From Candidatus Poribacteria bacterium (GTDB taxonomy: Bacteria > Poribacteria > WGA-4E > WGA-3G), in NCBI GenBank assembly GCA_958295945.1, contig OY282386.1, positions 1,367,371 through 1,431,370 on the forward strand: a stretch of 64,000 bases of DNA, read 5' to 3'. Below the pieces are notes generated by a model. It made no database searches, was not told where the DNA came from, and saw only the letters and a program-made list of their open reading frames with translations. A program made the position numbers and the translations under genes. Each line of letters opens with the position of its first letter. Within the stretch, counting starts at the first letter, position 1. This document shows positions 13,490 to 32,520 of the stretch, piece by piece.

Positions 13490-13660
13490 TTAATCAACGC
13501 ATTGTCCCGCGAGGTCTCCGTGCCTCGCCTATTAATCAACACATTGTCCCGCGAGGTCTCCGTGCCTCGCCTATTAATCAACACATTGTCCCGCGAGGTC
13601 TCCGTGCCTCGCCTATTAATCAACACATTGTAGCGCGAGGTCTCCGTGCCTCGCCCAACG
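13490..13660. repeat. Tandem array of four 42-bp units
   Basis: The block CGCGAGGTCTCCGTGCCTCG begins at 13508, 13550, 13592 and 13634, an exact 42-bp period. Each unit contains a small hairpin (CGAGG/CCTCG) followed by a near-constant ATTAATCAACACATTGT linker. The fourth unit differs by TAG for TCC. The period is a multiple of three, so a minus-strand frame reads as 14-residue repeats, but no start or family supports coding. Confidence 0.85.
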
Positions 13661-22764: not shown

Positions 22765-25700
22765 TTAATCCTCAACGACTTCAGCTTCCAGTTCCGGCAG
22801 TTCCTCTGGTAGTATTTCTGGTTCAGGTTCGTCATCAATAGCATCATAAGACACATTAAGTTCCTGCCATTCAGAGAATCCAGTTCCAGCAGGGATAAGT
22901 CGACCGAGGATTACGTTCTCCTTCAGACCTGTGAGCATATCAGTTTGTCCTTCAACAGCGGCATCGGTTAGAACTTTAGGTGTCTGTTGGAAACTCGCTG
23001 CGGAGATAAAACTATCCGTACTGAGCGATGCTTTACTGATACTCTGTAAGACAGGTTCTCCTGTAGCTGGAGTGCCATTTTCTTCTTCAACGCGTTTGTT
23101 TTCAGCGTGGAACTTGTGTCTAGTAACTTCATCGTTCGCATAGAACGTTGTGTCGCCCACAGTAAGTATCCGGATCTTCTGGAGCATTTGTCGCACAATA
23201 ACTTCAACGTGTTTATCGTTGATAGTGTTTGGTCCATACACAGTCTGTACCTCATCAACAAGATATGTCCAAAGTGCTTCTTCACCTTCCAGTGAATGTC
23301 CATTAAGAGTAGTCCTACCGATCTTAAGTATATCGTGTGGATTGAGATATCCATCTGTCAACGGTTGACCCGCTTCAACCTGGTCCCCATCATCAACCCG
23401 TCTTTTCTCGTCTGGTATTGAATATAGACGGCTTTTCGTTGCCTCATCTACAATTCGGTATTGAGGTACACCAGCCTTCTGTCCAGTAAGTTGTAGTTGT
23501 CCATCAATCTCAGCAATTTCGGCAGCGTCTTCACGTTTCGGACGACGTGCTTCAAAGAGTTCAGTCACACGAGGAATACCAACAACGATGTCAAGGTTAG
23601 TGGATTTTTCGTGCAATTCTGCCAACGGACTCTGTACGTTAACACTATCACCATCTTTCACAGAAACGGAGTAGCCTGCTGGAATAAGGTGAGATTTATG
23701 TCCACCATCTTTCATCAGTATTTCAATCCGAAATGTTTCGATTAGACCATCAACCACAACACCGGGATATTGTTCAAGGGCAGTGTTATATTCCCAATCT
23801 TTCAACTCTTGACCAATATCAAGCGTACAGTTGGGATGTAGAACTTTAGTAACTCGGTAAATATTCCGTGAAGTAGTTGATAATGCTTTCTTGTAGTCAG
23901 CATCACTGAGGATTTGATCTACTTTGACATCGGTCTCTGGTTCATTGATTTTGATAACCTTATATACTCGTTCCGTATCAAATCCTTTATATAAGCGTTG
24001 ACCGCGTTTGTATTCAGTTTCTTCAATCTGTTGTCCAGCGGAAAATGGACATTCCTCATGGTGTACAGCAAGAATATGATATACCAGCTTGAATTCAGGT
24101 GGTGGTGTATCCGTTTCTCTATGCTGTTTCACGAGTGCTTTGTATTCAGTATCAGTTAGGACCTCTTCAGTATCTTCGCCATCTTGGACACGTATATGAA
24201 GTTTCTCAAAGTCAAAACCTTTGAAGTTACGGCGATAGCGATTGGACTCAGATTGTGTGATGATTTCATCTTCAGGAACCGGAAAGTCTGGGTGATGTGA
24301 TGCAACGACACGATAGAGGCGTTCAACTTCAAATGCCCCTTCATTTTTCTCCACATCCACTTCAAAACCGGGGTACTCTTTCAGTACTGCTTTTTTCTCA
24401 GTTTCAGTAAGCAGTTCTTCTGTGTCCAACGGACATTCGGGATGATGTACAGCTGTAATTCTATATCTGAGTCGTTCTGCTGCAAAACCACTGAACTTAT
24501 CCTGTAGAGTCTCTAAGTTTTCGTGATCGATCAATTCAGCAAGCTTAAGCGGACATTCCGGATGGTTTACTTGTGTTACACGCAACAATTTCGCTGAGGG
24601 ACGTTGGACTTCAAAAGTTTTATTTTCTTCCTGCACCTTCTGTAAGTCAGTGACACTATACTCTTGACCTTCAGATAGATCTATACCTGGACTGACATCT
24701 CTCACAGTATAGACAGGATCATCAAAATCAATATGATGTTGACTTTCTTGTTCAACTGTAAGTAAATCCCCTTCCTTATACGTACAACTCTTGTCCGTAA
24801 TAGACTGAATTTGGTACTTCATGGCTGCTGTAACATCTTTCTGTTGTTGCAGATATTCACTTTCGGTGAGGAGGTCCCCTTTGTTAGTTTGATAAACCCA
24901 TTCACCCGTGAAAGGTCTGATTTTAACTTTCCATGCTTCCATTTCTGTTTCTGTCAACAAAACTCCTGTTTCCAGTGAAATTTCAGGATGTTTCACACTT
25001 TGAACACGGTACAGCGGTTCAGAAATTCGGAATAATGAATACTTATGTAGACACATGTTGTATTCTTTTTCAGTGAGGTACTGTCCCTCTTGCAATGAAA
25101 ATTCATTGTCAGAATTTTCCTCAACAATTTCCGTTTTGTTTACTTTGATTACCTGAAAGACAATAGGTTCTACTTCAAACCCAGGGAAACGTTCAATGTT
25201 TTCCTGATATTGTCTTTCTGTGAGCAGTTCATCGGGTTGCAGCTGACAATCAGGATGTTGTACAGTCTTGACCTTATATTTCGCTTGGTCAAGGTGTTCT
25301 GCGACCTTATCCACTATCCAAAGTCCATCTTTTTCATGGACAGTGCGTCCAGGAATAAAATCTCTAAACCGCACAGTTCCTGAAGATTTTGCAAGAATCT
25401 TACGGGCAAGACCTTCACTAACATCTTCAACCACGCCCCCCGTATGGAACGTACGCATTGTCAACTGTGTACCGGGTTCACCAATAGATTGAGCAGCGAT
25501 GATACCGATTGCTTCCCCTACGTTGACCCGTTGCCCCGAAGTTAAATCAGCACCGTAGCATTTTGCACAAACACCTTTTTCTGTTTCACATGTCAATATA
25601 GACCGGACACGAACACTTGGAACTTCAGCGTCTTCAATCCTCTGTGCTATCTGTGGACTAATGAAAGTATCACTTTCGACCAATATTTCCTCTGTAGTCG

Positions 25701-28371
25701 GATGTACTATAGGTTCAACCGTAACGCGTCCACTAATTTTAAAACTGATGGATCCAGCATCTGTAGTAAATTTGAGGATACCGTTCATAGTGCCGCAGTC
25801 ATCTTCGGTAATCATAACATCTTGTGCGACATCAACAAGTTTCCGTGTAAGGTATCCGGAAGCGGCAGTTTTCATAGCCGTATCCACCAATCCTTTTCGT
25901 GACCCGTAGGTTGATGTGAAGTAATCAAGTACATCTAAACCTTCGCGATATGAGGATTGTATCGGTGTGGATAAGATCTCACCGTCTTGTCTTGACTTCA
26001 ATCCAACAATTGCACTGATCTGTGAGAACGGGTTTTTTCGTGCGCGTGCACCGCTGTCTGCCATCAGATGAACGGGACTAAATCCTTCTACCTCTTTCCC
26101 TTGTTCAACCAGATATGCTTTCGTTTCTGGCAGTACCGTGAATAACGACTCCCCAACTTCATTCACTGCGACAGACCATATTCGAATCTTTTCATTTTCA
26201 AATTCTTCCGCCTCAAGGTTGTCTTGCTCTTTGAGAAGATCAATCTGTTTTTGAGCATCCCTGAGAATCTTTTTCTTCGCTTCAGGTATCAAATAGTCTC
26301 TAATACCCGGAGAAATCCCACTCCGTGTAGCATATTCAAAACTAAGTTTCTGCAATCGATCTAATAGAGAAACAGTTTCAGCAGTACCAAGTTCATTGAA
26401 ACACTGTTTGACAAGTTCTGACAGTCGTCTGCCACGTGCTTCCTCATTGAAAAATGGTAATTCAAGCTCTGATACTTCATCCTCCCATGAGAGTGAGACG
26501 GTTCCGTTTGTGTGAGGCAGGACTTCATTGAATATTACGCGTCCCACAGTAGTGAGAATCGGTTCACGATGTTCTTTGAAAAACAGCACAACAGAATCAT
26601 GGAGTTTGATCGTGCCGCACCCGTGTGCGTGTGTAACCTGATCAAGTGTTGTAAAACGTCTTCTTGCCCAAGTTTCGCTTTCTAATGATGCGAATACATT
26701 GTCTTTATCGGAGTCTTCAACATAAGCGGCGTGTAGTTTTTCTGCTCGTTCTCTGTGCTCGGGAAGTTCTTTTGTAAGAAAACTTGCGCCTAAAATCATG
26801 TCAAGTTCGGGAACTGCAATAGGTTCGCCATGGGAAGGTTTTAGGATATTCCCACTACTGAGCAGCAGCATCTTCGCCTCAGTGCGTGCCTCAATAGACA
26901 GCGGTACATGAACAGCCATCTGGTCGCCATCAAAATCGGCATTAAACGCCTTACACACAAGTGGAGGAATTCGTATGGATTTTCCCTCAACCAGCACCGG
27001 CATAAATGCCTGAATTCCAAGGCGATGAAGTGTTGGTGGACGATTTAAGAGTACTGGATGGTCAGCGATGACTTCCTCCAACGCTTCCCATACAGGTGAA
27101 TCAGGTGTAACGTGGTCAGTCAAGTTCTTACCACGTTTTATCGTCTGGGCATCCCCCGCTGCCATCAGTTTCTCAATAATGAATGGTTTGAATAATTCCA
27201 CAGCCATTAATTTGGGTATACCACACTGATGCAGTTCTAATTCAGGACCGACGACAATCACACTTCTGCCAGAATAGTCCACCCGTTTTCCGAGTAAGTT
27301 TTGACGGAAACGTCCGACTTTACCTTTAAGAATGTCAGATAAAGATTTTAGAGCGCGTTTACCCGGCCCGGTAACTTTGCGTCCATGTCTTCCGTTGTCC
27401 AAAAACGCATCAACAGATTCTTGAAGCATACGTTTTTCATTACGGAGGATGACTTCTGGGGAACGGAGATCAATTAGTTTCTGTAGACGATTGTTCCTAT
27501 TTATAACGCGGCGATATAAATCGTTCAGGTCACTTGTTGCGAATCTTCCACCCTCTAATGATACTAATGGACGTAGATCGGGACTAATCACTGGAAGCAC
27601 TTCAAGAATCATCCAATCGGGTTGCATGCTTGCTTTTTCAAAACCAGCAACCATCTTGAGTTGTTTTGAGAGTTTAACTTTTTTCTGATGACTTGAAGTC
27701 TGCTCAAGTTCCTCTCTAAATTTATCGACATCTTCAGGTAGATCAATATTTCGCAGGAGTTCCTGAATTGCTTCAGCACCTGTTCCAGCTTTAAAGGTAT
27801 CTGGGAATTCGCGTTGCTTTGCTATTACATCCGCTTCTGTGAGAATATCTTTCTCAACTAAACCACAACTTTCATCAGTTACCTCTGTGACAATAAAGGC
27901 TTCGAAATAGAGCACTCTCTCTACTTGGCGTGATGCGAGTTCCAAAAATGTTCCGAGTCGGGATGGTATCCCTTTGAAAAACCATATATGAGAAACAGGT
28001 GTCGCAAGTTTTATGTAACCGAGTCGTTCTCTTCTGACCTGAGATTTTGTGACTTCAACACCACACTGATCACAAATTAGTCCTTTATGCTTAATCCGTT
28101 TGTACTTGCCGCAACTGCACTCAAAATCTTTCTGTGGACCAAATGTAGCTTCACAGAATAGACCTTGCTGCTCTGGACGAAAACTGCGATAATTAATCGT
28201 TTCAGCTTTTTTGATTTCGCCGCAATCACAAGTACCTTTTTCTACACACGTCCAAACATCGTTTGCCGGATTCCGTCGCTTACAAGATGTGCGCTTTGCC
28301 CAATCTTTTATCTGATCAGGGGAGGCGATACTAATAGATATACGATTAAATCGATTTTCTTTGTCTGCCAT
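22765..28371 (-). CDS. rpoC: RNA polymerase beta' subunit with giant repeat-bearing SI3-type insertion
   Basis: This is the catalytic beta' subunit, 1868 residues against about 1400 in E. coli. It has the clamp zinc site (C85, C87, C100, C103), the active-site NADFDGDQM loop, and the trigger-loop helix (GTQLTMRTFHTGG near residue 1000). The C-terminal part starts GIPRVTELFEARRPK and ends with KINDKH-like and VRQMLQKIRI segments. Between trigger-loop halves lies an SI3-like sandwich-barrel domain. Residues 1032-1542 interrupt it with about 13 degenerate repeats of 26-50 residues, built around Y-x-V-x2-V-x-H-P-[DE]-C and LLTE-x-E-Y. A second, 25-residue Cys-rich insertion lies at residues 26-50. 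AAGGAG precedes the ATG. It follows rpoB by 123 bases that contain a long hairpin. Confidence 0.97.
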   Translation of the reverse strand: MADKENRFNRISISIASPDQIKDWAKRTSCKRRNPANDVWTCVEKGTCDCGEIKKAETINYRSFRPEQQGLFCEATFGPQKDFECSCGKYKRIKHKGLICDQCGVEVTKSQVRRERLGYIKLATPVSHIWFFKGIPSRLGTFLELASRQVERVLYFEAFIVTEVTDESCGLVEKDILTEADVIAKQREFPDTFKAGTGAEAIQELLRNIDLPEDVDKFREELEQTSSHQKKVKLSKQLKMVAGFEKASMQPDWMILEVLPVISPDLRPLVSLEGGRFATSDLNDLYRRVINRNNRLQKLIDLRSPEVILRNEKRMLQESVDAFLDNGRHGRKVTGPGKRALKSLSDILKGKVGRFRQNLLGKRVDYSGRSVIVVGPELELHQCGIPKLMAVELFKPFIIEKLMAAGDAQTIKRGKNLTDHVTPDSPVWEALEEVIADHPVLLNRPPTLHRLGIQAFMPVLVEGKSIRIPPLVCKAFNADFDGDQMAVHVPLSIEARTEAKMLLLSSGNILKPSHGEPIAVPELDMILGASFLTKELPEHRERAEKLHAAYVEDSDKDNVFASLESETWARRRFTTLDQVTHAHGCGTIKLHDSVVLFFKEHREPILTTVGRVIFNEVLPHTNGTVSLSWEDEVSELELPFFNEEARGRRLSELVKQCFNELGTAETVSLLDRLQKLSFEYATRSGISPGIRDYLIPEAKKKILRDAQKQIDLLKEQDNLEAEEFENEKIRIWSVAVNEVGESLFTVLPETKAYLVEQGKEVEGFSPVHLMADSGARARKNPFSQISAIVGLKSRQDGEILSTPIQSSYREGLDVLDYFTSTYGSRKGLVDTAMKTAASGYLTRKLVDVAQDVMITEDDCGTMNGILKFTTDAGSISFKISGRVTVEPIVHPTTEEILVESDTFISPQIAQRIEDAEVPSVRVRSILTCETEKGVCAKCYGADLTSGQRVNVGEAIGIIAAQSIGEPGTQLTMRTFHTGGVVEDVSEGLARKILAKSSGTVRFRDFIPGRTVHEKDGLWIVDKVAEHLDQAKYKVKTVQHPDCQLQPDELLTERQYQENIERFPGFEVEPIVFQVIKVNKTEIVEENSDNEFSLQEGQYLTEKEYNMCLHKYSLFRISEPLYRVQSVKHPEISLETGVLLTETEMEAWKVKIRPFTGEWVYQTNKGDLLTESEYLQQQKDVTAAMKYQIQSITDKSCTYKEGDLLTVEQESQHHIDFDDPVYTVRDVSPGIDLSEGQEYSVTDLQKVQEENKTFEVQRPSAKLLRVTQVNHPECPLKLAELIDHENLETLQDKFSGFAAERLRYRITAVHHPECPLDTEELLTETEKKAVLKEYPGFEVDVEKNEGAFEVERLYRVVASHHPDFPVPEDEIITQSESNRYRRNFKGFDFEKLHIRVQDGEDTEEVLTDTEYKALVKQHRETDTPPPEFKLVYHILAVHHEECPFSAGQQIEETEYKRGQRLYKGFDTERVYKVIKINEPETDVKVDQILSDADYKKALSTTSRNIYRVTKVLHPNCTLDIGQELKDWEYNTALEQYPGVVVDGLIETFRIEILMKDGGHKSHLIPAGYSVSVKDGDSVNVQSPLAELHEKSTNLDIVVGIPRVTELFEARRPKREDAAEIAEIDGQLQLTGQKAGVPQYRIVDEATKSRLYSIPDEKRRVDDGDQVEAGQPLTDGYLNPHDILKIGRTTLNGHSLEGEEALWTYLVDEVQTVYGPNTINDKHVEVIVRQMLQKIRILTVGDTTFYANDEVTRHKFHAENKRVEEENGTPATGEPVLQSISKASLSTDSFISAASFQQTPKVLTDAAVEGQTDMLTGLKENVILGRLIPAGTGFSEWQELNVSYDAIDDEPEPEILPEELPELEAEVVED
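23746..25278 (-). repeat. Coding tandem repeats within rpoC (about 13 units)
   Basis: These 511 codons (residues 1032-1542) hold degenerate units. Starts of the clearest are YKVKTVQHPDC, LYRVQSVKHPE, LLRVTQVNHPEC, LRYRITAVHHPEC, LYRVVASHHPDF, YHILAVHHEEC and IYRVTKVLHPNC. Most carry a following LLTE/ILSD-type segment and a Y-x-G-F end. Several units have lost parts (for example the one starting WVYQTNKGDLLTESEY). No stop or frameshift interrupts them. Confidence 0.85.
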
Positions 28372-28494: not shown

Positions 28495-31400
28495 CTATTC
28501 GGAATCGTCCATATCCCAGGTGAGTTTTAGGGGTGGTTCATCCTCTATGGGTTCCATTGTATCCAATGTATGTAAAAGTGGAAAGTCTGTATCACCGAGT
28601 CGGCTTTGATCTGAGTCTACATCAGCAGGATCGCCTTCGGTCAACTCTACATTTAAGCCTAAACTTTGCAGTTCTCGGACCAACACATTGAATGATTCAG
28701 GTGTGCCGGGTTTCATTGGGCTCTGTCCTTTTACTATTGACTCATAGATTTTTGTTCTGCCTTTAACATCATCGGATTTGATAGTCAACATCTCTTGTAA
28801 TGTATGTGCGGCACCGTAAGCTTCCAATGCCCATACCTCCATTTCACCGAGACGTTGCCCCCCATGTTGTGCTTTTCCACCGAGGGGTTGCTGTGTTACC
28901 AATGAATAAGGACCGGTTGATCGCGCATGCATCTTATCCGCTACAAGGTGGTTTAACTTTAGGAAATATACATAACCGACTGTGACTTCCTGTCCAAATG
29001 AATCACCAGTTCGACCATCATATAAAACACTTTTTCCAGTCTTTCTGACGTTTTCAGGTAAGTCTGTTTTCGCTAACATGTCAAATACCTCAGTCTCTGT
29101 AGCACCATCAAACACGGGTGATGCAATATGCATATTGAGTTCCTTACAGGCTAAACCTAAATGAATCTCAAGGATTTGCCCAACATTCATCCGAGAAGGC
29201 ACGCCGAGAGGATTTAACACTATATCAACAGGAGTTCCATCTGGTAGGTATGGCATATCTTCTTCAGGTAGAATCTGTGCGACGACACCTTTGTTTCCAT
29301 AACGTCCAGCCATTTTATCACCGATGGAAATAGGTCGACGGCTTGCCACATAAACTTTTACAAGTTTCAGGACGCCAGGTTTCAATTCTTCACCCGCTTC
29401 AAGTTTTTCTAATGCGGCATCTTTTTCCTGTGTATATACGTCAATTCTCCCTTTAGCGATATCTTGTAGACTTTGGATATATGCAGTGGCATCCGCATCA
29501 GTGACTTGCAGCCCTTCAAGTTCACTTTGCGAAAGTCCAGTTAAATATTCACGATTCAATGCATTACCAGCTTCCAACTGCTGGGGAGTATCTGCGTTTT
29601 CCGTATCTTCGCTGTTATTATCAATCCCAATTGTTGTTGGATAAGCAAGTTCTTTGTTGACTAAAGTCTCTCGCATCTCTTCTGTTAGACGTTCAGCAAT
29701 CTGTTGACACTGTTCCTGCCATGTCTGCTGAATTTGTTTCCTAAGATTATCTTGATGCAAAGCAGTTCGCTCACTGTTCGGAGTGGCTTGTCGAGAAAAC
29801 ACCTTTACATCTATGACAACACCTTCAACGCCAGGGCGGGTATAGGCGGATGCATCTTTGACCTCTTTAACTTTTTCACCGAAAATTGCTCGTAGGAGTT
29901 TCTCTTCAGGACCGTATTCTGCTTCACCTTTCGGGGAGATTTTGCCGACAAGAATACTACCTGTTCCGACGACACTCCCTATACGAATGACACCTTCTTC
30001 ATCAAGTTGTGCGAGACTACGAGTGGACATGTTTGGAATATCGCGTGTAATCTCCTCGTCCCCCATTTTCGTTTGTCGAGCAGCAACTTCAAATTCTTCA
30101 ATATGGATAGAGGTAAAAGTATCGTTCTTAATGAGCGATTCACTAATGAGAATAGAGTCTTCAAAGTTATGTCCGCCCCACGGCATATACGCACAAAGGA
30201 TATTTCTTCCGAGTGCAAGTTCACCACCCTCAGTAGAAGTGCCATCGGCAATCACATCACCTTTTTCTATAACATCACCGATTTCTACACGTGGACGTTG
30301 GTGGATACATGTGCCGCTGTTACTGCGTTTAAAGTTTTTCAGTTTATAAACATCATACCCCATTTCACTGAATGTGTGCTCACCTTCTTCAAGATGAAGT
30401 GCTTGCCCTGTGCGGATCAAGATTTCTTCAGCATCAACACTTGTGACAACACCACCACTGTGTGCGACTACCATAGCATTTGCATCCCGTGCTGCCCGAT
30501 GTTCCATGCCTGTGCCAACCCAAGGTGCTTCTGGTGAGATTAATGGGACGGCTTGGCGTTGGTGGTTTGCCCCCATTAGTGCGCGGTTCGCATCTTCATG
30601 TTCTAAGAAGGGAACGAGTGCGGCAGAAACCCCGACAATCTGTTGTGGGGCAATCCCGATATAGTCAATATCTGAAATTTCGCGTTCAATCACTTCTTCA
30701 CCTTTGCGGCTCCGTAGAATTTTTGCTCTGCTGCCTTTTGTAATGGCATCTGCGGGGGCAATATTATATTTGTCCTCCGCATCAGCGGTTAAATATTCTA
30801 CATCTTTCGTAACTTTTCCGTTACGTATAGCACGATATGGTGTTTCTAAGAATCCATACGGATTGACCCGCGCAAATGTGGCTAACGACACGATGAGTCC
30901 AATAGAAGGACCTTCAGGAGTCTCTAATGGACAGACGCGTCCATAGTGAGTCCGATGGACATCTCGCACGGCTGCGGTTGCCCGGTCACGGTGCAGTCCA
31001 CCAGGACCAATCGCGGAAATACGACGTTTATGCGTGAGTTCATCCAACGGATTGATCTGTTGCATGAATTGCGATAGTTGGTTAGAACCGAAAAACTCCC
31101 GGAGTGACATAATGAGTGGTTTAGGATTGACTAAGTTCTTAGGATTCTTTAGCTGCGCATCGGTCGTTGTGCTAAGTTTTTCACGTGCTGCACGACGCAT
31201 CTGCAACAACGCAATTCGAAACTGATTTTCAAGCAGCTCACCTATGACACGCACCCGTCTGTTACCCAGATGATCCAAGTCATCTACAGGCCGGAGTCCG
31301 TTGCGTATGTCCATCAGATATTTCAGTGTGGAAGCAATATCTTCTCTTCGTAGCACCCGCATATCTTCAGATGGCATCTCATCAGATTCATCCTGATAAA

Positions 31401-32520
31401 CTGGTAGGTCTCCGAGTTTTGTATTAATCTTGTATCTACCGACAGTACCTAAATCGTAACGTGCGCCATCAAAAAATAGACGTTCCAAACATGTTGATGC
31501 TGCTTCGCGGGTTGGCGAATCCCCCGGTCTCAATGTGCGAAAAATCTCAACAAGTGCTTTTTCTTGTAGCGTGTCACCTGCACTTGTCTTTACCGTATCG
31601 CGTGAGAGCGTATTTCGCAAAAAGCGTAACTCTTGCTCATCCGATTCCACTAATACTTCAACTTCTGATACTTGAGCTTCCACCAGTCTGTCAAATTCTA
31701 TTTCAGATAATTTCGTATTAGCTTCAAGTAGAATTTCACCTATATTAGTATCAACAGCATTTTCAGCGATAACACGTCCAATGACATCCTGCGTTAATTT
31801 GACATTTTCTGTGTTACCAAAAAGTTTTAGGATTTCTGCATCTGTTTGCCATCCGAGTGCACGTAATAACACAGTAACCAATAGTTTTTTCTTTCGGTCA
31901 AGTCTGACATGAATGCAATCCTTTGAATCGAATTCAAACTCTATCCATGCCCCGCGGTATGGAATAATCTGGCCTGTGGGGAGTTTCTGCACGCTTGATG
32001 CATGCGATTTATCAAGAAAAATTACACCAGGCGAACGTTGTAATTGATTGACAATCACACGCTCGGAACCATTGACAATAAATGTTCCATTTTCAGTCAT
32101 TAACGGGATATCGCCAAGATAGACCTCCGATTCGGTAATGTCTAATACCCGGGTCTGTCCTGTGTCTTCATCCTTTTCCCGTTCAACACACATCAGTCGT
32201 GCTTGTAATCGCCCCTGATAGTTTAGACCCCGTGCTTGGCAATCCATAAGATCATGTGTCGGTGGACTGAGTGTGTAACTAACAAATTCAAGGCTTGTGG
32301 TTTCTTTAAAGTCATAAATCGGAAAAACTTCTTTGAACAATGCCTGTAGACCTTTTGTTTCGCGTTCATCTTCTGGCACATCACGCTGCATAAATGAAGC
32401 ATAGGAACGCTTTTGTGTCTCAATTAAGTCAGGCAGTTCAAGGACCGTGGGGGTTTTAGCAAAGGAGACGCGCTGTCGTAACGAAGCAGGACTTCCATTA
32501 GATTTAATTTTTTTGGGCAT
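28495..32520 (-). CDS. rpoB: RNA polymerase beta subunit
   Basis: The 1341-residue beta subunit contains all major landmarks. These are the rifampicin-pocket segment (QLSQFMQQINPLDELTHKRR), GRVCPLETPEGPSIGLI, the KMAGRYGNKG active-site lysine region, and the C-terminal MEVWALEAYGAA. An acidic insertion (about residues 985-1040) interrupts the region before GVLKLVKVYVASRRP. The pocket differs from E. coli at positions equivalent to 516 (D to Q), 518 (N to I) and 522 (S to D). An AAGGTGA ribosome site precedes the ATG. rpoC follows on the same strand. No ribosomal protein genes lie upstream; the flank is repeats and an IS. Confidence 0.98.
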   Translation of the reverse strand: MPKKIKSNGSPASLRQRVSFAKTPTVLELPDLIETQKRSYASFMQRDVPEDERETKGLQALFKEVFPIYDFKETTSLEFVSYTLSPPTHDLMDCQARGLNYQGRLQARLMCVEREKDEDTGQTRVLDITESEVYLGDIPLMTENGTFIVNGSERVIVNQLQRSPGVIFLDKSHASSVQKLPTGQIIPYRGAWIEFEFDSKDCIHVRLDRKKKLLVTVLLRALGWQTDAEILKLFGNTENVKLTQDVIGRVIAENAVDTNIGEILLEANTKLSEIEFDRLVEAQVSEVEVLVESDEQELRFLRNTLSRDTVKTSAGDTLQEKALVEIFRTLRPGDSPTREAASTCLERLFFDGARYDLGTVGRYKINTKLGDLPVYQDESDEMPSEDMRVLRREDIASTLKYLMDIRNGLRPVDDLDHLGNRRVRVIGELLENQFRIALLQMRRAAREKLSTTTDAQLKNPKNLVNPKPLIMSLREFFGSNQLSQFMQQINPLDELTHKRRISAIGPGGLHRDRATAAVRDVHRTHYGRVCPLETPEGPSIGLIVSLATFARVNPYGFLETPYRAIRNGKVTKDVEYLTADAEDKYNIAPADAITKGSRAKILRSRKGEEVIEREISDIDYIGIAPQQIVGVSAALVPFLEHEDANRALMGANHQRQAVPLISPEAPWVGTGMEHRAARDANAMVVAHSGGVVTSVDAEEILIRTGQALHLEEGEHTFSEMGYDVYKLKNFKRSNSGTCIHQRPRVEIGDVIEKGDVIADGTSTEGGELALGRNILCAYMPWGGHNFEDSILISESLIKNDTFTSIHIEEFEVAARQTKMGDEEITRDIPNMSTRSLAQLDEEGVIRIGSVVGTGSILVGKISPKGEAEYGPEEKLLRAIFGEKVKEVKDASAYTRPGVEGVVIDVKVFSRQATPNSERTALHQDNLRKQIQQTWQEQCQQIAERLTEEMRETLVNKELAYPTTIGIDNNSEDTENADTPQQLEAGNALNREYLTGLSQSELEGLQVTDADATAYIQSLQDIAKGRIDVYTQEKDAALEKLEAGEELKPGVLKLVKVYVASRRPISIGDKMAGRYGNKGVVAQILPEEDMPYLPDGTPVDIVLNPLGVPSRMNVGQILEIHLGLACKELNMHIASPVFDGATETEVFDMLAKTDLPENVRKTGKSVLYDGRTGDSFGQEVTVGYVYFLKLNHLVADKMHARSTGPYSLVTQQPLGGKAQHGGQRLGEMEVWALEAYGAAHTLQEMLTIKSDDVKGRTKIYESIVKGQSPMKPGTPESFNVLVRELQSLGLNVELTEGDPADVDSDQSRLGDTDFPLLHTLDTMEPIEDEPPLKLTWDMDDSE

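Follow-up and report, generated by a model that had tools for sequence, protein, structure and literature searches.

A long array of units resembling the small left claw in the trigger-loop insertion of a Poribacteria RNA polymerase

The β′ subunit (RpoC) encoded in a 64,000-nucleotide stretch of a Candidatus Poribacteria genome (the window) carries, within the trigger-loop insertion SI3, an array of about 13 short units that resemble, and likely derive from, the protein's own small-left-claw (sLC) element β′-bD2. In cellular RNA polymerases the trigger loop acts as the catalytic switch; the known large insertions in it consist of sandwich-barrel (SBHM) domains. Here, within the trigger loop, one family of one phylum has multiplied what appears to be part of its own polymerase. 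This provides a natural test of how much insertion the enzyme tolerates, of what a long arm does to catalysis and of whether polymerase insertions can start out as selfish elements. Large polymerase insertions are held to have tapered off after early bacterial evolution (PMC11515920, in excerpt). We consider it probable that the array is a lineage-specific arm, formed by multiplying β′-bD2 about 13-fold inside the one sandwich-barrel remaining in SI3, and that it works in the manner of cyanobacterial Si3. The parts of this explanation that the results support are what the units are and where they likely came from, their location in an SBHM that they split, the near-fixation of the array in the family, purifying selection on it, and related units at further sites of RpoB and RpoC in relatives.

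The array was placed in the trigger loop, between the residues TMRTFH, which are intact in the window RpoC, and the segment G-[IL]-P-R-V (Table 1). An earlier note on this DNA had named four flanking motifs, which fall at RpoC residues 967, 1005, 1563 and 1598, and had described a 511-residue insertion in a protein of 1868 residues; its protein and DNA borders agree exactly with each other and with the array as listed here. Neither Pfam nor NCBIfam names the insertion in the window RpoC. With a profile of the units, 13 were identified in the window; 11 of these have E<1e-3 and the other two are marginal. The count is in line with the roughly 13 repeats of the earlier note, but it is partly circular, since arrays served to train the profile. 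Tandem Repeats Finder detected no DNA-level array in 23.7-25.3 kb, and therefore the repeats are visible in the protein only and the copies are far diverged. Elsewhere in the window, a 42-bp DNA tandem repeat is present in 4 copies with 97% matches (13490-13655).

Table 1. Features of the rpoC region, listed in the direction of transcription; positions are those of the window.
Feature	RpoC residues	Window position	Strand	Basis or remark
rpoB		28495..32520	-	1341 aa, window genome; frame and Pfam; no unit match
rpoC, array host		22765..28371	-	single open frame, 1868 aa
Native small-left-claw element β′-bD2	161-190	27802..27891	-	array profile E 7.7e-4; likely unit source
Trigger loop, N-side motif GTQLTMRTFHTGG	967-979	25435..25473	-	motif position
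Split SBHM, N-terminal half	about 986-1028	25288..25416	-	model and structure match; borders approximate
Array	1032-1542	23746..25278	-	motifs and unit profile
Unit 1	1032-1068	25168..25278	-	profile E 4.7e-16
Unit 2	1087-1112	25036..25113	-	profile E 8.5e-6; loop of the matching unit is the nuclease site in relatives G033 and L099
Unit 3	1121-1157	24901..25011	-	profile E 3.9e-11
Unit 4, marginal	1164-1178	24838..24882	-	profile E 1.7
Unit 5	1186-1213	24733..24816	-	profile E 7.5e-5
Unit 6	1221-1256	24604..24711	-	profile E 1e-6
Unit 7	1264-1299	24475..24582	-	profile E 3.4e-11
Unit 8	1303-1339	24355..24465	-	profile E 4.1e-17
Unit 9	1353-1389	24205..24315	-	profile E 4.1e-14
Unit 10, marginal	1403-1418	24118..24165	-	profile E 4.5
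Unit 11	1431-1467	23971..24081	-	profile E 8.3e-15
Unit 12	1470-1497	23881..23964	-	profile E 1.6e-7
Unit 13	1505-1540	23752..23859	-	profile E 2e-15
Split SBHM, C-terminal half	about 1546-1589	23605..23736	-	model and structure match; borders approximate
Conserved segment past SI3, GIPRVTELFEARRPK	1598-1612	23536..23580	-	motif position

An AlphaFold2 model of the SI3 region (650 residues, 26 family sequences, mean pLDDT 81.3, pTM 0.44) contains repeated strand-helix units flanked by two groups of strands. The two ends of the model jointly matched E. coli SI3 (4iqz_D, Z 12.2, rmsd 2.1, 80 residues), and the same ends fell on β′ about 1021-1126 in many further structure entries. Therefore, one SBHM is present and is interrupted by the array, as had been proposed when the insertion was placed inside an SI3-type sandwich-barrel. 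Of the ~600 residues of SI3, 511 are made up of sLC-like units, so that the insertion is not SBHM throughout. A Foldseek search with the whole 650-residue model returned no match at E<=0.001. A separate model of units 7-9 reached pLDDT 83.2 (five models, 67 to 83) and pTM 0.47; with pTM at 0.44-0.47, the relative placement of the units is not fixed by either model.

The identity of the units was examined with profiles in both directions. A profile built from arrays only matched the native bD2 region at E<1 in all 32 RpoC of the family and in all 12 from other families. Its best native matches, at 3.4e-11, were to RpoC of the same order that lack an array, compared with E 19 for the best shuffled or reversed decoy. 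Run against the whole genome of the window at E<=1, the array profile returned only 11 array units and the native element, the latter as the weakest match (E 0.03). For the reverse and non-circular test, a profile was made from the native element of eight RpoC without an array, from the same order and other families (a ninth, from G036, was dropped, its motif being missing). Eight stretches of the window array scored higher than any of 200 shuffles; in five relatives the number of such stretches was 4 to 7. The array profile gave no match to E. coli bD2 at E<1; in RpoC that carry no insertion in bD5 (BEAN), the array-only profile did not match that region.

Comparisons with known structures pointed in the same direction, with weak single scores. 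When the array profile was run against all PDB sequences, the best 4 of 11 matches lay within β′ residues 141-175 (E 0.024-0.13). Foldseek with the three-unit model listed 50 of 89 matches, 49 of them RNA polymerase, with a best E of 0.89. In most rows, VIA placed one unit on β′ about 1254-1305 (E. coli numbering; bD7 by position); one row had it on B. subtilis β′ residues 131-171 (bD2) instead. The rmsd was 1.2-2.2 in all but one row, and Z was at most 5.3, a value that by the tool's own note may mean little alone. β′ has two sLC domains, bD2 and bD7, which are homologous to each other (PMC11515920, in excerpt). Each unit would be expected to fold as a small beta-beta-alpha-beta claw. The results support the earlier note's statement that the units differ from SBHM folds; that note was right about their position in SI3 as well, and missed both their likeness to the sLC and the presence of units elsewhere in RpoB and RpoC.

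A scan of 84,980 species genomes, limited by its search pattern, yielded 45 confirmed loci, every one of them titled Poribacteria. By the per-genome table of unit matches, in which RpoB units are included, the count is six or more in 55 of 58 genomes of the window's family; among 26 Poribacteria outside it, 10 have exactly one unit match and 16 have none; in this phylum count G004, G008 and G068 had no unit match, the first two also having no RpoC match. A tblastn search (E<=0.01) of phage and plasmid records found nothing like the window array, and as far as the pattern-limited scan and these records reach, the array appears to be absent outside Poribacteria.

The distance from the GTQLT motif to the GIPRV motif was used as a measure of SI3 length (G030 was left out of the spacing measurements, and L078, L084 and L108 out of the SI3 spacing). 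In the window's genus, it is 631 aa in 12 RpoC and 633 aa in three (15 RpoC, 18 genomes). It is 647-852 aa in 14 of 15 RpoC of genus g2, 859-862 aa in two RpoC of genus g3, and 940 aa in G062, where SI3 has further units. In other families it is 197-254 aa in 11 of 12 RpoC and 405 aa in one, and in E. coli it is 210 aa. The comparison of relatives' RpoC that the earlier note had called for thus finds the insertion across the family. For 12 of the 13 window units, the best match in G012, a genome of the same genus, lies at the equivalent position of the array; across genera, the units correspond only in part. In nine species pairs, dN/dS was 0.10-0.24 for the array and 0.04-0.10 for the rest of RpoC (dS is saturated in some). 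The array is therefore under purifying selection, looser than that on the RpoC core, and this constraint suggests that it has some use.

Units related to those of the array were found at other sites of the polymerase. RpoB has unit matches in 27 of 42 frames (named contigs and the window), near positions 289, 980 and 995 in E. coli numbering and singly at 418, 593 and 599; both g3 genomes have them near 289, and the window RpoB showed no match to the unit profile. Additional sites in RpoC lie near 161 (L094), 857 (L067) and 1295 (L097). For genome-wide unit matches, the length of the frame decided between RpoB and RpoC; in the seven genomes checked, RpoB matches were confined to one frame per genome. 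The only non-polymerase protein seen with units is one of 851 residues (L111, 5565-8117, minus strand, genome G082), which combines sLC units with HSDR_N-like domains, TPR repeats and a probable membrane helix. By eye, several host sites (RpoC bD2, bD5 and bD7; RpoB near 599) resemble one half of a unit, which would fit insertion by recombination between unit-like stretches.

Six relatives were found to have nuclease domains of three kinds (MTES_1575, HNH and HSDR_N-like) embedded in insertions of RpoB or RpoC. MTES_1575 exceeds the Pfam cut-off and lies in frame in the RpoC of G033 (L113, inside SI3), L067/G009 and L097/G063. HNH-type domains lie in frame within unit arrays in the RpoC SI3 of L099, a locus from a single-chromosome assembly, and in the RpoB of L066/G014 near E. 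coli 599. Among plasmid records, the L099 segment had 18 matches (35-45% identity), of which 11 carry the annotation HNH endonuclease and four ZorE; among PDB sequences it matched no nuclease. With the Pfam HNH model, L099 scored E 0.14, below the cut-off, and L066 gave no match; the latter is called HNH because it is similar to L099. An intact-looking HSDR_N-like domain is present in the RpoB of L083 near E. coli 418, with a weak HSDR_N_2 match; at E 0.0074 and 0.00056, the matches to HSDR_N_2 do not reach the Pfam cut-off. L099 and G033 hold two different nucleases in about one loop of unit 2. A profile of the HSDR_N-like domain identified a relative near 980 in 35 of 66 RpoB frames (E 2.6e-14 to 1.7e-6; best decoy 35). 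By eye, the E-x-K of the intact copies was not seen in these 35, which are apparently decayed. Several genomes are represented twice among the nuclease-bearing loci and the 66 RpoB frames. Pfam and the survey of unit loci found no nuclease domain in the window array.

According to the preferred reading, that of a lineage-specific arm, the units would line up as an elongated structure rooted on the trigger loop. By analogy with cyanobacterial SI3, the arm would exit at the side of the secondary channel and extend along the enzyme, would contact the beta lobe, sigma or other surfaces and so stabilise complexes, and would move, or be held, with folding of the trigger loop. The surface that it would cover may be free, because the Gre N-terminal domain (GreA_GreB_N) was found in none of 84 Poribacteria genomes (controls, 9 of 14). 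Loss of Gre as the cause of the array was considered and rejected, since Poribacteria families with an ordinary SI3 are also without Gre; the absence of Gre is at most a permissive condition. The arm is possibly descended from nuclease-bearing insertions. The sporadic nucleases suggest a selfish history, and a present use of the array and such a history may both be true.

A more far-reaching proposal, which we put forward tentatively and with some doubt, is that rpoB and rpoC of this family host in-frame, unspliced mobile cassettes. These would consist of arrays copied from the sLC with interchangeable nucleases, PD-(D/E)XK or HNH, and would spread between sites; the window array would be a descendant without a nuclease that has been domesticated and that the enzyme can no longer do without. 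Homing endonuclease genes offer a parallel, being nuclease reading frames embedded in an essential host gene. Nuclease frames likewise sit in the essential rpoB or rpoC of six relatives; the differences are that three nuclease kinds are involved, that the host is a cellular multisubunit polymerase and that the arrays are made of host-like units.

A related alternative gives the array a selfish origin and no task. The units would be the body of in-frame, unspliced, nuclease-bearing cassettes that enter tolerant loops of rpoB and rpoC, and the SI3 array would be an old cassette that lost its nuclease and was kept as a surface arm, either harmless or ratcheted in. In its favour, nuclease domains of three kinds lie in or beside unit arrays of six relatives, spread over two subunits and at least five sites; two kinds occupy about one loop of unit 2, and apparently decayed relatives of one kind occur in more than half of the RpoB frames surveyed. 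However, mobility is conjectural, the window array and most arrays of the family are free of nucleases, units were seen in just one protein outside the polymerase, and both purifying selection and the constant length within the genus suggest use. We regard an array without a task as unlikely.

It is more improbable still that the arrays are scaffolds that tether nucleases to the polymerase, in the service of defence or repair coupled to transcription, with the window array now docking free proteins. The resemblance of the HNH domain in the L099 SI3 to plasmid HNH proteins and to ZorE of the Zorya defence system would fit such tethering, as would the co-occurrence of units and HSDR_N-like domains in the 851-residue protein, but the nucleases are sporadic, none is present in the window, and one kind looks decayed. 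Removal of the segment from the mRNA or the protein is very hard to credit: nothing positive speaks for it, Pfam at E<=0.001 found five polymerase domains and no intein-type (Hint splicing) family in the window RpoC, Rfam had no match anywhere in the window, hence no intron, and the segment sits in a split SBHM under purifying selection. An assembly artefact or chimera has next to no probability, even with relatives that are mostly metagenome-assembled: the near-constant spacing throughout the genus (equal in 12 of 15 RpoC, the others within 2 aa) speaks against collapse or chimera, the 45 contigs come from many projects and include some single-contig genomes, and at the DNA level no repeat exists that could collapse.

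SI3 insertions as such, and sLC domains, have been described before; four known systems (cited from excerpts of the papers) bear on the array. E. coli SI3/βʹi6 consists of two SBHM domains in 188 residues (PMC2939025). It shares the trigger-loop location with the Poribacteria array, whose flanks form an SBHM; in Poribacteria, however, there is one SBHM, split by ~13 units of another fold. Cyanobacterial Si3, with 645 residues of SBHM repeats, has been called the largest known; it spans the enzyme, makes contact with the rim helices, the lobe and sigma, and has been proposed to keep Gre factors out (PMC10802570, PMC10120043). As a very long trigger-loop insertion in a Gre-less lineage, it is likely an analogue in mode of action, but it is built of SBHM repeats, whereas the Poribacteria units are sLC-like and, in the window's genus, span a motif spacing of 631-633 aa. 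The small left claw β′-bD2/bD7 itself is similar to the array units in sequence and may share their fold. Insertions of sLC within bD2, bD4, bD5 or bD7 occur in rare variants (PMC11515920); an sLC insertion in SI3, or an array as long as this one, is not named in the excerpts of that paper. Tandem small modules within a polymerase subunit are also known from beta i4, with one to six predicted copies of BBM2 (PMC2939025), and from BEAN domains (PMC11515920), where the subunit is another one and the module appears to differ from the Poribacteria units. Open-licence literature, which lacks most subscription papers, contained no sLC array this long in SI3 and no nucleases within such arrays, and the main text of a study of Poribacteria genomes (PMC3909097) does not mention RNA polymerase, rpoB or rpoC. 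The combination of a long sLC array in SI3 with embedded nucleases was thus not found described.

Two further RpoC-like proteins of relatives were noted. The sole RpoC frame found in genome G002 (L070) has, after about E. coli position 647, a helical-looking, leucine-rich insertion of ~430 residues without units, for which no Pfam match above the cut-off was obtained over the 147 residues searched. Genome G081 (L112, 1814-5041, minus strand) encodes a second, shortened RpoC-like protein that lacks SI3 and keeps the native element, and in which the NADFDGD motif is altered to GSDCDNN; genomes of the same order have similar frames of 1040-1104 aa that match RpoC only partly.
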